A stretch of 64,000 nucleotides of DNA from Frankiaceae bacterium (GTDB lineage Bacteria > Actinomycetota > Actinomycetes > BP-191). Both the position numbers and the translations under genes were made by a program. Position 1 is the first letter of the stretch. Every line of letters begins with the position of its first letter. The stretch spans positions 1-64,000 of the forward strand of contig DATMES010000033.1 in the NCBI GenBank assembly GCA_035556555.1. Direction: 5' to 3'. This document shows, piece after piece, positions 22,046 through 29,699 of the stretch. Below the pieces are notes generated by a model. It was not told the DNA's origin, searched no databases, and saw only the letters and a list, made by a program, of their open reading frames with translations.

Positions 22046-22315
22046 ATGCGCTCGAAGCACGTGCTCGCCGCCGCCCTCGCCGTCGGGGCGTTCGCCATCC
22101 CGGTCTCGCCGTCGCACGCCGACCCGGGCGGCTGCGTGACGACGTACGCCGAGAACCGCCAGGAGTACTACTTCACCGGCGTCCCCGGCGTCGACTACCA
22201 GATCAAGCCCGAGCCGGAGGTCCACCTCTACCCGACCGCGCCGGTCGCCGTCGCCGTGTACATCGCCAGCACCGAGGCCGCCCAGGCGGGCGCGCTCGTC
22301 ACCTGCATCGTCTGA
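22046..22315 (+). CDS. Small secreted protein of unknown function
   Basis: 89 residues with a signal peptide (KHVLAAALAVGAFAIPVSPS, cleavage after SHA). The mature part of about 64 residues has two cysteines near its ends (GGCVTTYAENRQEYYF ... LVTCIV). AAGGAGA precedes the ATG by six bases, a strong site. It resembles the ten-gene peptide array 4 kb away in size and secretion but not in its cysteine pattern, so it is a distinct protein. Function unknown. Confidence 0.75.
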   Translation: MRSKHVLAAALAVGAFAIPVSPSHADPGGCVTTYAENRQEYYFTGVPGVDYQIKPEPEVHLYPTAPVAVAVYIASTEAAQAGALVTCIV

Positions 22316-22370: not shown

Positions 22371-22712
22371 TCAGAGCGCGAGTACGCGCCGCAGCCCGTC
22401 GTCGACCTCCCGCATCAGCGCGAGCGGGACCTGGCCGACGGGACCGTCGAGGTCGTCGCGAGGTACGGCCGACAGCTGCGAGACGTTGACGACCGAGTCC
22501 TTCGGCAGGCCGGTCGCCGACGCCGGCACGAAGACGTTGCCGGGGATCTGCCCGAGCTGGGTGTTGGACGTGAGGCTCGCGACGACGACCGAGCCGATCG
22601 CCGACCGGTTGACGTCGTCCGACTGAACGACCACCGCGGGCCGTCGCTTCGCCGGGGCGCTGCCGACCGCCGGCCCGAAATCGACCCAGAAGACTCCCCC
22701 GCGTTCGATCAC
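22371..22712 (-). CDS. mazF: MazF/PemK-family mRNA interferase toxin
   Basis: 113 residues from GTG 22712. Family signatures are IERGGVFWVDFGPAVGSAPA-KRRPAVVVQSD, ASLTSNTQ, GNVFVPASATGLPKDSVVN and VSQLSAVPRDDL. MazF-type toxins are ribosome-independent endoribonucleases. The toxin overlaps the antitoxin gene by four bases (GTGA), so production is coupled and the antitoxin is made first. Active-site Arg and Ser/Thr candidates are present (KRRP, ASLTSN). Confidence 0.92.
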   Translation of the reverse strand: MIERGGVFWVDFGPAVGSAPAKRRPAVVVQSDDVNRSAIGSVVVASLTSNTQLGQIPGNVFVPASATGLPKDSVVNVSQLSAVPRDDLDGPVGQVPLALMREVDDGLRRVLAL

Positions 22713-22954
22713 CAGTCCTCCGTGTCCTCGGCGAGGCGCCGCATGTTGTAGTCCAGAACGTCCGGCAGCGTGCCGTCACTGCCGATGCGTTCGAGTGCCT
22801 CGTCGATCTCGCGCGTCAGCGACTCGGCCTCCAGCCGCTGGACGTACGCCTCCGCCGCGCGCTGGAAGAACGCCGACCGGCCCACGCCGAGGACGGACGT
22901 CCACTTGGTCACCTGCTCGAACAGCTCGTCGGGCACGGAGATCGCGGTCTTCAT
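22709..22954 (-). CDS. Ribbon-helix-helix antitoxin partner of MazF
   Basis: 81 residues. The N-terminus KTAISVPDELFEQVTKWTSV and LGVGRSAFFQRAAEAYVQRL is a typical MetJ/Arc/CopG ribbon-helix-helix domain that would bind the operator just upstream. The acidic C-terminal tail (NMRRLAEDTEDW) is suited to wrap the toxin. It is first in the operon, with the toxin overlapping its stop. Autoregulation is inferred from the direct repeats at 22962-22979. Confidence 0.9.
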   Translation of the reverse strand: MKTAISVPDELFEQVTKWTSVLGVGRSAFFQRAAEAYVQRLEAESLTREIDEALERIGSDGTLPDVLDYNMRRLAEDTEDW

Positions 22955-26273: not shown

Positions 26274-26344
26274 GTGGGCTCCTCGGCTCGCTGCGGTTTC
26301 CGCTCCTGAACCTATCCCCAGGAACGCCGGTGCAGTCACCGCCG

Positions 26345-26364: not shown

Positions 26365-26467
26365 GATGGGCGCGCCCGTGTCGAACGATGCCACGCTAGG
26401 CAGAGCGGTCAGTTTGTCCTACTCTGCGCGCCACCCCTTACGTTCCTTACCCCTCGAGGAGCCCCCC

Positions 26468-26683
26468 TTGCGCAGGACCCTCGCTCTCGCCGTGTCCGGC
26501 CTCGCCCTGGCGGCGTTCGTCGCCCCCGTCCAGTCCGCCTCCGCCGTCTGCATGGCGGACCTCTCGTCGGTCGGCGGCCCCAGCTGCTTCAACCCGTGCT
26601 ACGCGGTCTTCGGGACGTACGAGACCGCGGACCGGGCGGCGAAGGACTGGCTGCCCGAGCACTCCATCTACTGCCTGCACTAA
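26468..26683 (+). CDS. Tandem secreted four-Cys peptide 1
   Basis: 71 residues from TTG 26468, with GAGGAG upstream. Signal peptide RRTLALAVSGLALAAFVAPV ending SASA, then a mature peptide starting VC with the pattern C-x11-C-x2-C-x23-C-x2-end (AVCMADLSS, GPSCFNPCYAVF, IYCLH). It is the first of ten paralogous genes transcribed together. The long upstream in-frame extension overlaps the promoter region and is not used. The stop codon lies within a 20-bp tandem duplication. Function unknown; see the array finding. Confidence 0.8.
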   Translation: MRRTLALAVSGLALAAFVAPVQSASAVCMADLSSVGGPSCFNPCYAVFGTYETADRAAKDWLPEHSIYCLH

Positions 26684-26732
26684 CCACCTACTGCCTGCAC
26701 TAACCCCCACCCCTCGCAGAAGGAGCCCCCCT

Positions 26733-26936
26733 GTGCGCAGAACCCTCGCCGTCGCCGCCCTCGGCCTCGCCACGGCTGCCGTCGCCCTCCCGGTGCAGTC
26801 CGCGTCCGCGGTCTGCATCACGCCGTACTACGCCGTCACCGGCCACTGCAGCCCCTGCACCACCGTCGACAACGTCACGCGCTACCTGCACGACAAGCTC
26901 GGGACCCCCGAGACCGTCACGAACTGCGTGGCGTAG
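26733..26936 (+). CDS. Tandem secreted four-Cys peptide 2
   Basis: 67 residues from GTG 26733, with AAGGAGCCCCCC just upstream. Signal peptide RRTLAVAALGLATAAVALPV-QSASA is nearly the same as in peptide 1. Mature part: VCITPYYAVTGHCSPCTTVD ... VTNCVA, pattern C-x10-C-x2-C-x22-C-x2. Its GHCSPC centre and NCVA/QCVA-type C-terminus closely match peptide 5, suggesting a more recent duplication between these two. Confidence 0.85.
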   Translation: MRRTLAVAALGLATAAVALPVQSASAVCITPYYAVTGHCSPCTTVDNVTRYLHDKLGTPETVTNCVA

Positions 26937-26964
26937 CCACCCCCTCCCCGAACGGAGCCCCCCG

Positions 26965-27159
26965 TTGCGCAAGCACCTCGCCGTCGCCGTCCTCGGCCTC
27001 GGCCTCGCCGCGTCGTTCGCCCCGCTCAGCCCCGCCTCGGCGGTGTGCACCAACCAGATCCAGGACGTCGTCGACACGTGCCGGACCCACTGCGCACCCG
27101 TCGACGTCGTGAACCGCCACGTGCTGATCCCGCGCGGCCAGCACATCGACTGCTGGTAA
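26965..27159 (+). CDS. Tandem secreted four-Cys peptide 3
   Basis: 64 residues from TTG 26965, preceded by ACGGAGCCCCCCG, a block repeated before peptide 4. Signal peptide RKHLAVAVLGLGLAASFAPL ending SPASA. Mature part: VCTNQIQDVVDTCRTHCAPV ... HIDCW, pattern C-x9-C-x3-C-x20-C-x1. The middle pair is separated by three residues (CRTHC), a variant also seen in peptide 6. Confidence 0.83.
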   Translation: MRKHLAVAVLGLGLAASFAPLSPASAVCTNQIQDVVDTCRTHCAPVDVVNRHVLIPRGQHIDCW

Positions 27160-27184
27160 GCCCCTCGAAGAACGGAGCCCCCCG

Positions 27185-27358
27185 TTGCGCAAGAAGATCG
27201 CCCTCGCGGCCCTCGGCCTCGGCCTCGCCGCGTCGTTCGTCCCCCTCAGCCCCGCCAGCGCGTACTGCAGTGAAGGCTGGCGCGCCCTCACGGGTGACTG
27301 CAACCCCTGCAACACCATCGCCCGGGTCAGCAACCGGCCGATGGTCTGCCTCGACTAG
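27185..27358 (+). CDS. Tandem secreted four-Cys peptide 4 (short)
   Basis: 57 residues from TTG 27185, easily missed because of its length. Signal peptide RKKIALAALGLGLAASFVPL ending SPASA, almost identical at DNA level to peptides 3 and 5. Mature part of only about 30 residues: YCSEGWRALTGDCNPCNTIA ... MVCLD, pattern C-x10-C-x2-C-x12-C-x2. The last spacer is about half the usual length, so a loop is deleted while all four cysteines are kept. Confidence 0.8.
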   Translation: MRKKIALAALGLGLAASFVPLSPASAYCSEGWRALTGDCNPCNTIARVSNRPMVCLD

Positions 27359-27371
27359 AAGGACTCCCCTC

Positions 27372-27575
27372 ATGCGCAAGAAGATCGCCCTCGCCGGCCT
27401 GGGCCTCGGCCTCGCCGCGACGTTCCTCCCCGTCTCCTCCGCCTCGGCGGCCTGCGTCCCCGTGTGGTGGGAGACCATCACCGGCGACTGCAGCCCGTGT
27501 CAGACGATCGGCCCGGCGTGGCGTGCCCTGCACGACGCCGGCGCTCCGACCGACTACGTCCAGTGCGTCGCGTAG
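27372..27575 (+). CDS. Tandem secreted four-Cys peptide 5
   Basis: 67 residues from ATG 27372 with AAGGAC upstream. Signal peptide RKKIALAGLGLGLAATFLPV ending SSASA. Mature part: ACVPVWWETITGDCSPCQTI ... YVQCVA, pattern C-x10-C-x2-C-x22-C-x2, most like peptide 2. Its TAG stop shares one base with the GTG of peptide 6, so the two are translationally coupled. Confidence 0.86.
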   Translation: MRKKIALAGLGLGLAATFLPVSSASAACVPVWWETITGDCSPCQTIGPAWRALHDAGAPTDYVQCVA

Positions 27576-27775
27576 TGCGGCTCACCCTGCTCGCGCTCGG
27601 CGTGGCCGCCGCGGGGCTCGTCCCCGCGGCGCCCGCGTCGGCGTCCTGCAACACGGCGCTCTACGTCACCACCGGGCGCTGCGAGAACCACTGCACCATC
27701 GCGGCCGCCGCGTACTCCGAGGTCCGTACGGCCTCCGGCGACGCGCCGCCCCCGTTCGGCCCGTGTGCCGCCTGA
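27575..27775 (+). CDS. Tandem secreted four-Cys peptide 6
   Basis: 66 residues from GTG 27575, overlapping the previous stop by one base. Signal peptide RLTLLALGVAAAGLVPAAPA-SA. Mature part: SCNTALYVTTGRCENHCTIA ... PPPFGPCAA, pattern C-x9-C-x3-C-x25-C-x2. It has no separate ribosome-binding block of the GGAGCCCCCC type; translation probably depends on peptide 5. Confidence 0.8.
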   Translation: MRLTLLALGVAAAGLVPAAPASASCNTALYVTTGRCENHCTIAAAAYSEVRTASGDAPPPFGPCAA

Positions 27776-27797
27776 CACCCCTACCCACGGAGAAGCC

Positions 27798-28016
27798 ATG
27801 CGCAAGAAGCTCGCCCTCGCCGGCCTCGTGGCCGGCATCGCCGCCGCGGTCCTGCCGACCGCGCCCGCCTCGGCCCAGTGCTCGTACACGATCGAGGGTG
27901 TCCAGGACTGCGGCAACTGCGCCGAGCTGTTCTACCGCGTCGACGCGGTCACCGTGGGCGTCCGCGAGAAGCTCGGCGTCGGCAGCATCGGCGACATGTT
28001 CGTCTGCACCCAGTGA
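27798..28016 (+). CDS. Tandem secreted four-Cys peptide 7
   Basis: 72 residues from ATG 27798 with ACGGAGAAG upstream. Signal peptide RKKLALAGLVAGIAAAVLPT ending APASA. Mature part: QCSYTIEGVQDCGNCAELFY ... DMFVCTQ, pattern C-x9-C-x2-C-x27-C-x2. The TGA stop shares a base with the ATG of peptide 8, giving a second coupled pair like peptides 5/6. Confidence 0.84.
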   Translation: MRKKLALAGLVAGIAAAVLPTAPASAQCSYTIEGVQDCGNCAELFYRVDAVTVGVREKLGVGSIGDMFVCTQ

Positions 28017-28228
28017 TGCCCGCGCGGCGTACGGTCGCGCTCGCCGGCCTGGGGATCGTCGCGGCGCTGTCCGCGCACGCGTCGCCGGCGTCGGCCTGCG
28101 ACCCCGGGCGCTTCCCGTATTGCATGACGCCGTGCCGCGCCGCCGTCCACCACTACGACGAGGTCCGGGCGAGCACGAGCGTCGAGCTGCCCGCTGTCCC
28201 GAGCACCGGCCTGGCCGGCTGCCCCTAG
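28016..28228 (+). CDS. Tandem secreted four-Cys peptide 8
   Basis: 70 residues from ATG 28016, overlapping peptide 7 by one base. Signal peptide ARRTVALAGLGIVAALSAHA ending SPASA. Mature part: CDPGRFPYCMTPCRAAVHHY ... GLAGCP, pattern C-x7-C-x3-C-x31-C-x1, the longest final loop of the set. No independent ribosome-binding site is evident. Confidence 0.8.
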   Translation: MPARRTVALAGLGIVAALSAHASPASACDPGRFPYCMTPCRAAVHHYDEVRASTSVELPAVPSTGLAGCP

Positions 28229-28247
28229 ACCGAACGGAGTCCCCTTC

Positions 28248-28460
28248 ATGCGCCGTCCCCTCGCCGCGTCCGTCCTCGCGGCCGGCCTCGCCCTGTCGTT
28301 CGTGCCCGCCGCGCAGGCCACCGGCCCGCTGCCCTGCGACCCGTACATCACGAAGGTCTGCGTCCCGCACGCCTGCTTCACCGCCGCGCTCGTGGTCTCG
28401 ACGGTCAACGAGGCCGCCGGCGAGCCGCTCCCGCCCGGCTTCCCGCACTGCATCGACTAA
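28248..28460 (+). CDS. Tandem secreted four-Cys peptide 9
   Basis: 70 residues from ATG 28248, preceded by ACGGAGTCCCC. Signal peptide RRPLAASVLAAGLALSFVPA ending AQA. Mature part: PCDPYITKVCVPHACFTAAL ... FPHCID, pattern C-x7-C-x4-C-x26-C-x2. The middle spacer of four residues is the widest seen. The spacing to the next gene is 11 bases. Confidence 0.82.
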   Translation: MRRPLAASVLAAGLALSFVPAAQATGPLPCDPYITKVCVPHACFTAALVVSTVNEAAGEPLPPGFPHCID

Positions 28461-28471
28461 GGAGAACCCCT

Positions 28472-28642
28472 ATGCGCCGCATCCTCGCGGCCGGGCTCGT
28501 CGTCGCCGCGGCGGCGTTCGGCCCGGTCCAGAGCGCGTCGGCCCTCTGCTGGACCGAGGTGGCGGGCATCTGCGTGTCGCCCTGCGACCTCGGCAACCTC
28601 GCCTACCGCACCGTCACCGGCGGAGACCTGACGTCCTGCTGA
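28472..28642 (+). CDS. Tandem secreted four-Cys peptide 10 (short, last of array)
   Basis: 56 residues from ATG 28472, with AAGGAGAACCCC upstream; too short for many gene callers. Signal peptide RRILAAGLVVAAAAFGPVQS ending ASA. Mature part: LCWTEVAGICVSPCDLGNLA ... DLTSC, pattern C-x7-C-x3-C-x17-C with the last cysteine as the C-terminal residue. A strong hairpin begins 20 bases after its stop and probably ends the transcript. Confidence 0.8.
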   Translation: MRRILAAGLVVAAAAFGPVQSASALCWTEVAGICVSPCDLGNLAYRTVTGGDLTSC

Positions 28643-28662: not shown

Positions 28663-28721
28663 TGATCACCTGTGTCCCCGCCCGTGCGGCGTCAAGGCCG
28701 CTCAGGGGACACAGGTGATCA
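28663..28721. terminator. 17-bp perfect hairpin, dispersed repeat copy 1
   Basis: TGATCACCTGTGTCCCC (28663-28679) and its exact reverse complement (28705-28721) flank a 25-base loop. It begins 20 bases after the last peptide gene and probably terminates the array transcript. A near-copy with one mismatch lies at 60232-60310, so this is a mobile or conserved repeat rather than a gene-specific terminator. Confidence 0.7.
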
Positions 28722-28951: not shown

Positions 28952-29015
28952 TAGGGCGTGTCTCGCACCGTCCCGGACGCACTCGCGACGATCACGGGTC
29001 GCGAGACACGCCCTA
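28952..29015. repeat. MITE-like 64-bp inverted repeat, copy 1
   Basis: The arms TAGGGCGTGTCTCGC (28952-28966) and GCGAGACACGCCCTA (29001-29015) are perfect 15-bp inverted repeats. The right end CTA is, on the minus strand, the TAG stop codon of the cupredoxin gene. A diverged copy occurs at 40387-40443, also supplying a TAG stop. The size and ends fit a miniature inverted-repeat transposable element or a mobile terminator. Confidence 0.6.
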
Positions 29016-29699
29016 CGCGCCGCGGCCTCGCAGCAGCAGCCACGCCGCGCCGCCGAGCGCGCCCGCGGCGACGACGAGCCCCAGCCCGATGGCGAGGCCG
29101 GTCTTCGGCTTCGCCGGGGCGGGGTCGATGTCCGCGACGGTCGTGGCGCTGGGGGAGGGCGCGTTCGTCGTGGCCGGCGGCTCGGTCGTCGCGGGCGCGG
29201 TGGTGGGCGCTGCCGTCGTAGGAGGCGCCGTGGTGGCTTGCGGGCTGGTCGGGATGACGGCCGGCGTGGTGGACGCCTGTGCCCTCGGCACCGGCGACGT
29301 CGTCCGTGCGGGCGTCGCCGGAGGCGTGGTCGCCGGCCTGGTGCTCGGCTTCACCGACGGCGACATCGACACCGGCGGGGTGGTCGCGGCGGCCTGCTTC
29401 ACGACGATCTGGCCGGTCATCGAGCCATGGACCGAGCAGACGTACGAGAACGTCCCGGCCGTCGCGAACGTGTGCGTGAACGTCGCGTCCTTCGCTCGCA
29501 CCCCCGAGTCGGCGAACGTCCCCGTCACCGAGTGGTTGCCCTCCGCCCAGCACCACGTGACGGTGCCGCCCCGGGCGACGTCGTGCGACGCGGGCGCGTA
29601 CCCCGTGATCCGTACGGTCACGTCACACGCCGCGGCGGCCGGCGAGGCCGGCAGCACCACGGCACCGAGGAGCATGAGAACGGCGAGCGAGTGCTTCAC
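29013..29699 (-). CDS. Secreted, membrane-anchored cupredoxin (blue copper protein)
   Basis: 228 residues from GTG 29699. Signal peptide 1-24; a plastocyanin-like domain (about 25-102) with a full type-1 copper site: His56 (EGNHSV), Cys88 (YVCSVHGSM), His91 and Met94. A long threonine/proline linker follows (TTAPPTTAAPTTAPATTEPP region, 105-195) and then a C-terminal membrane helix ([20 protein letters not shown]) with RGRGA. It would carry electrons at the cell surface. No copper oxidase is adjacent, so its partner is unknown. Its stop codon lies inside the MITE-like repeat. Confidence 0.88.
   Translation of the reverse strand: MKHSLAVLMLLGAVVLPASPAAAACDVTVRITGYAPASHDVARGGTVTWCWAEGNHSVTGTFADSGVRAKDATFTHTFATAGTFSYVCSVHGSMTGQIVVKQAAATTPPVSMSPSVKPSTRPATTPPATPARTTSPVPRAQASTTPAVIPTSPQATTAPPTTAAPTTAPATTEPPATTNAPSPSATTVADIDPAPAKPKTGLAIGLGLVVAAGALGGAAWLLLRGRGA

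Follow-up and report, generated by a model that had tools for sequence, protein, structure and literature searches.

The window analysed here, a 64,000-nucleotide stretch of DNA from a Frankiaceae bacterium, carries at positions 26468-28642 an array of ten plus-strand genes whose precursors are 56 to 72 amino acids long. All ten reading frames that the original prediction had described as same-strand genes for secreted four-cysteine peptides are confirmed: each precursor runs from a basic start, mostly MRR or MRK, through a hydrophobic core to an A-x-A motif, and each mature part, of about 31 to 46 residues, holds exactly four cysteines. Relative to the predicted cleavage site the first cysteine is 0 to 5 residues on, and the last sits 0 to 2 residues before the end. 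The predicted spacing pattern holds too, except that the third gap reaches 28 residues and not 31, so that measured over the array it reads C-x7-11-C-x2-4-C-x12-28-C-x0-2. Start codons are TTG, GTG or ATG, most of them with GGAG and a C-rich spacer ahead of them. The frames are as expected of coding DNA, because codon GC is 95-97% at the third position versus 0.46-0.69 at the second.

The array and its surroundings

The first gene (26468-26683; 71 aa; TTG start; cysteine spacing 11-3-24, tail of 2 residues) is a profile match. Gene 2 (26733-26936; 67 aa; GTG start; 10-2-22, tail 2) has a TGHCSPC centre and resembles L035 10370-10528 of G002 and L034 9713-9922 of G001, these being the two other genomes of the order that were compared, both of the same genus as the source genome (G000). 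Gene 3 (26965-27159; 64 aa; TTG start; 10-3-19, tail 1) is followed by gene 4 (27185-27358; 57 aa; TTG start; 10-2-12, tail 2) with a TGDCNPC centre and gene 5 (27372-27575; 67 aa; ATG start; 11-2-21, tail 2) with a TGDCSPC centre. The GTG start of gene 6 (27575-27775; 66 aa; 10-3-23, tail 2) overlaps the gene 5 stop, and the stop of gene 7 (27798-28016; 72 aa; ATG start; 9-2-28, tail 2) is likewise overlapped by the ATG of gene 8 (28016-28228; 70 aa; 7-3-28, tail 1), which may instead start at a GTG at 28013 and whose mature part opens with CDP. The array closes with gene 9 (28248-28460; 70 aa; ATG start; 7-4-24, tail 2) and gene 10 (28472-28642; 56 aa; ATG start; 7-3-17), in which cysteine is the last residue.

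Successive genes are separated by 49, 28, 25, 13, -1, 22, -1, 19 and 11 nt. Given the gaps of 11 to 49 nt and the two overlapping stop/start pairs (genes 5/6 and 7/8), the ten genes probably form one operon. A promoter scan found none. A perfect inverted repeat of 17 bp with a 25-nt loop (28663-28721), 20 nt past the last gene, is a possible transcript end. Its arms are TGATCACCTGTGTCCCC ... GGGGACACAGGTGATCA, and since near-identical pairs occur elsewhere in the same genome (L131 17442-17517 and L141 15706-15764), it may represent a terminator or a repeat element specific to the genus. A direct tandem duplication of about 20 nt (CTACTGCCTGCACTAACC) lies at 26668-26708, across the stop codon of gene 1. 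Within the array a 109-nt unit recurs on the plus strand in six copies that are 61-100% identical (26444-27882). It comprises the GGAG leader with its C-rich spacer, the start codon and the signal peptide, and stops short of the mature region; the units of genes 3 and 4 share 84% identity. This leader and signal-peptide DNA, common to the copies, bears out the proposal that the array grew by tandem duplication.

The array is flanked by ppdK (minus strand, ending at 26339) on one side and by a minus-strand gene for a secreted protein (29013-29699) on the other; DUF218, MazF-like toxin, Usp-like and APH genes are also among its neighbours. The neighbourhood agrees with the earlier view that no immunity, modification, protease or processing gene adjoins the array. 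The protein encoded at 29013-29699 has a cupredoxin-like (azurin-like) segment, GTVTWCW...HSVTG...YVCSVHGSM, as well as a long Pro/Thr linker and, at the C-terminus, a membrane segment; a Pfam search at E 0.001 returned nothing for it. The toxin gene (22371-22954) is of the MazF/PemK type, with a short upstream partner on the minus strand. An outlying plus-strand gene (22046-22315) encodes a secreted peptide of 89 aa with two cysteines, C-x56-C-x2-end, near both ends of the mature part, and secreted two-cysteine peptides also occur in the matching dnaG-ppdK interval of both sister species. In each of the three species the same kind of array adjoins ppdK, numbering 10 copies here, 4 in G002 and 2 in G001; in the latter two genomes glyS lies on its other side. 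A mobile or phage origin was rejected, as the locus is syntenic and no relative was found in viral contigs or plasmids.

Relatives and the genome-wide repertoire

The array peptides have no match above a curated cut-off in Pfam, NCBIfam, PHROGs, PADLOC, PDB sequences or PDB folds. Pfam and NCBIfam yielded sub-threshold matches to unrelated families only, PADLOC and PDB sequences yielded none, and the weak PHROGs matches (one at E = 0.029) were not credible; we found no description of such a peptide family in the literature. The profile was run against the class (395 genomes) and the phylum (397 genomes), and matches that were credible came from this genus only, in a first look that scored at most 15-18 candidates per genome, so that weak distant relatives could be missed. 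Weak matches in other genomes of the phylum were rejected, as they lack a signal peptide and lie in unrelated frames. Six pattern matches in the GTDB collection, where genomes near the source genome may be left out, yielded no confirmed relative. The profile search suggested earlier recovers relatives in the sister species and gives no credible ones elsewhere in the class or the phylum. Taken together, these comparisons suggest that the array-type peptides are, as had been proposed, an undescribed family, with relatives found only in this genus.

The original prediction had pictured a single local array of an actinobacterial family. This did not hold: the profile was found in one genus only, and the genome holds many small clusters of secreted four-cysteine peptides, the array among them. 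The profile matches also pointed to other contigs, where more groups of small secreted peptides with cysteines were found. To guard against choosing places that favour the result, we scanned approximately 794 kb of this genome (a 20% sample) together with 298 kb from G002 and 35 kb from G001; the sampled stretches lie partly on contigs with profile matches, the matched regions themselves being left out. The scan accepted frames of 40-115 aa with a signal peptide, coding-like composition and a ribosome site, with the first cysteine at most 8 residues from the cleavage site, the last at most 10 from the end, and two or more cysteines allowed. Under these strict rules it returned 11 more genes in this genome and 3 in G002, and all 14 have exactly four cysteines. 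Of the controls, five other actinobacterial genomes (400 kb) and the ppdK loci of 80 species (1.07 Mb) gave none, so that the genus has 14 four-cysteine genes in 1.13 Mb whereas the 85 control genomes, all actinobacterial, have 0 in 1.47 Mb. With clusters counted once, the comparison is 10 loci versus 0 (p about 2e-4). Once the cysteine rules are lifted, at least two cysteines are present in 23 of 27 small secreted proteins of the genus versus 2 of 17 in the controls (Fisher p = 3e-6). A single scan applied to both finds 9 such genes in the array region and none in 300 dinucleotide shuffles of it, which, together with the empty 1.47 Mb, excludes a chance origin of the array. By extrapolation there would be about 55 such genes per genome (Poisson 28-99, treating clusters as independent, though they are not).

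Given that cysteine spacings differ between clusters, the repertoire probably comprises several families rather than one. A phmmer clustering of all genus peptides was discarded, as single links merged unlike patterns. A second tandem family with another pattern lies in G002 at L043 3018-3929, where four tandem secreted peptides carry a C-x22-C unit, duplicated in one of them.

Divergence of signal peptides and mature parts

Across 19 aligned members columns average 28% identity, while the cysteines are invariant in every one, with no stop codons and no cysteine losses. Likely orthologues of gene 7 (L034 9458-9688 and L035 10124-10336) retain the QC start, the CTQ end and all four cysteines, yet their mature identity across species is 29-62% versus 87-90% for ppdK. 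As simple proportions from short alignments, which for the mature parts are uncertain, pN and pS of likely orthologues are 0.25-0.50 and 0.29-0.42 in the mature parts, 0.06-0.26 and 0.21-0.46 in the signal peptides, and 0.07-0.08 and 0.25-0.26 in ppdK. The ratio is about 0.3 in ppdK and dnaG, clearly below 1 in most signal peptides and about 0.9-1.6 in the mature parts. Mature parts therefore change far faster than signal peptides or neighbouring genes, as expected from the earlier contrast between similar signal peptides and diverse mature sequences, for which this rate comparison had been proposed. Equality of pN and pS is not enough to tell diversifying selection from relaxed constraint, and saturation may contribute. 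Within the array, the signal-peptide DNA of genes 3-5 is nearly identical (pS 0.11-0.13, less than between species), whereas pS of their mature parts is 0.46-0.53. This contrast, and a 109-nt unit confined to leader and signal peptide, suggest that the leader/signal cassette was recently homogenised, or re-used with new mature parts.

Predicted fold and possible role

An AlphaFold2 model of gene 2, built on the 19-sequence mature alignment, predicts helices at residues 4-10 and 16-30 that meet at the CxxC turn, with pLDDT 84.6. Other gene 2 models reach 68-77 and gene 7 as query 63.8, with only the second helix recurring; the prediction is thus unstable across queries. A PDB fold search gave nothing better than E = 5. 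Pairing of the first with the last cysteine is plausible, as the secreted two-cysteine peptides of the genus have their cysteines near the two ends only. The genus is predicted to export many cysteine-bearing peptides although no VKOR homologue was found in any of the three genomes. No Thioredoxin_4 (DsbA-type) homologue was found in G000 or G002, and the two DSBA-family matches in this genome have no signal peptide and look cytosolic. Disulfides are accordingly neither backed nor excluded by these searches.

What would such peptides do? The best reading, which we hold tentatively and rate a little under an even chance, is that they are mini-proteins secreted together and closed by disulfides, which act outside the cell, as inhibitors, antagonists or decoys, on biotic targets that change. 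The operon would yield a mix of some ten exported mini-proteins, passed through Sec, cleaved by signal peptidase and released freely. Two disulfides would close the chain ends and confer protease resistance around a presumed two-helix core at the C-x2-4-C turn. The fixed parts, that is the export tag, the cysteines and the pinned ends, would then serve as a frame for delivery and stability and the variable parts as a binding surface. Members may bind different or changing extracellular partners such as rival or host enzymes, receptors, and phage or predator surfaces. Duplication and exchange of leader/signal cassettes would generate new variants, giving the genus its tens of such peptides with several cysteine patterns.

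Killing of related bacteria by membrane attack, with an immunity protein protecting the producer, is an alternative we regard as unlikely. Sec-dependent bacteriocins exist (for example PMC6700250), and the array peptides are likewise small, cysteine-containing, tandem and diversified, and all ten have a Sec signal peptide ahead of a short mature part, so that export is predicted. However, the array is neutral to acidic and not cationic as such bacteriocins are (net charge -3 to 0 in the nine members computed), the mean mature charge over 40 genus peptides is -2.2 (range -7 to +1), unlike typical cationic lytic peptides, and neither an immunity-sized nor a transporter gene lies beside the array or the other clusters examined. 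Acidic to neutral charge and missing immunity genes disfavour a membrane-lytic bacteriocin, and PADLOC, NCBIfam and Pfam hold no match. Enterocin P and enterocin Gr17, class II bacteriocins of this kind, share the Sec signal peptide, the short mature part and disulfide-forming cysteines (predicted here), whereas the array differs from them in its acidic charge, its four cysteines, its many paralogues per genome, and the absence of an immunity gene and of a family match. Envelope structural or surface proteins, corresponding to chaplins but specific to this lineage and maintained in many copies for the sake of dose, would also be secreted, multi-copy and cysteine-bearing, and the one genus concerned may have its own surface layer. 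Coat proteins are usually alike, whereas mature column identity here averages about 28%, and direct reading of the ten sequences reveals neither a wall anchor nor a lipobox (L/V/I at -3 with cysteine at +1), position -3 being A or S wherever a cysteine could be at +1. The array peptides share with Streptomyces chaplins their short length and actinobacterial origin but have four cysteines rather than two, are hypervariable rather than conserved and carry no anchor; no chaplin domain or other Pfam family matched at the curated cut-off, and we consider this reading quite unlikely.

The near equality of mature pN and pS, and copy numbers that differ strongly between species, would also fit real genes under relaxed constraint, cheap secreted by-products without a specific role that duplication maintains and whose cysteines just prevent degradation. 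Exactly four cysteines everywhere, no stop or cysteine loss among 19 aligned members, purifying selection on the signal peptides and presence in all three species make this decidedly improbable. Secretion and hypervariability suit kin recognition, and thus signalling or self-recognition peptides with dedicated receptors; yet the array has no gene for a receptor, histidine kinase or regulator beside it, and it would be uncommon for one operon to supply ten different ligands, so that such a role appears highly improbable. Binding of a metal such as zinc or copper by the four cysteines, in place of disulfides, could draw on the C-x2-C pairs in part of the family, on the failure to find VKOR or an exported DsbA-type protein in this genome, and on the azurin-like segment encoded downstream on the other strand (29013-29699). 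Given the wide variation in spacing (C-x2 to C-x4, and other patterns elsewhere), the normal oxidation of secreted thiols in aerobes, and no match to any metal-site family, we regard it as extremely improbable.

For the reading as mini-proteins with biotic targets, known systems offer partial parallels. Tendamistat-type alpha-amylase inhibitors of Streptomyces are small secreted proteins with two disulfides, as would be the actinobacterial peptides described here; the array peptides are shorter, differ in spacing, are predicted to be helical rather than beta sheet, and match no tendamistat-type family in Pfam or PDB sequences. Plants, fungi and venomous animals are well known for large sets of short secreted disulfide peptides that change fast, and the nodule-specific cysteine-rich (NCR) peptides of plants have four or six cysteines. 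With NCR and venom or effector families the array shares a conserved signal peptide, a divergent mature part, a few fixed cysteines and tandem lineage-specific expansion; unlike them it is bacterial, operon-encoded, differently spaced and without detected sequence relation. It is possible, if doubtful, that the genus holds the bacterial equivalent of a repertoire of venoms or effectors, in which tens of co-secreted disulfide-closed mini-proteins on several scaffolds are diversified by duplication and signal-cassette exchange in an arms race with other organisms. Given that annotation pipelines tend to miss such short GTG- or TTG-started genes, similar repertoires may be overlooked elsewhere. 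Tens of such peptides, carried by one bacterial genome in tandem operons and not found in the other bacteria searched, would extend that evolutionary pattern to a new case and offer stable mini-protein scaffolds that have yet to be studied.
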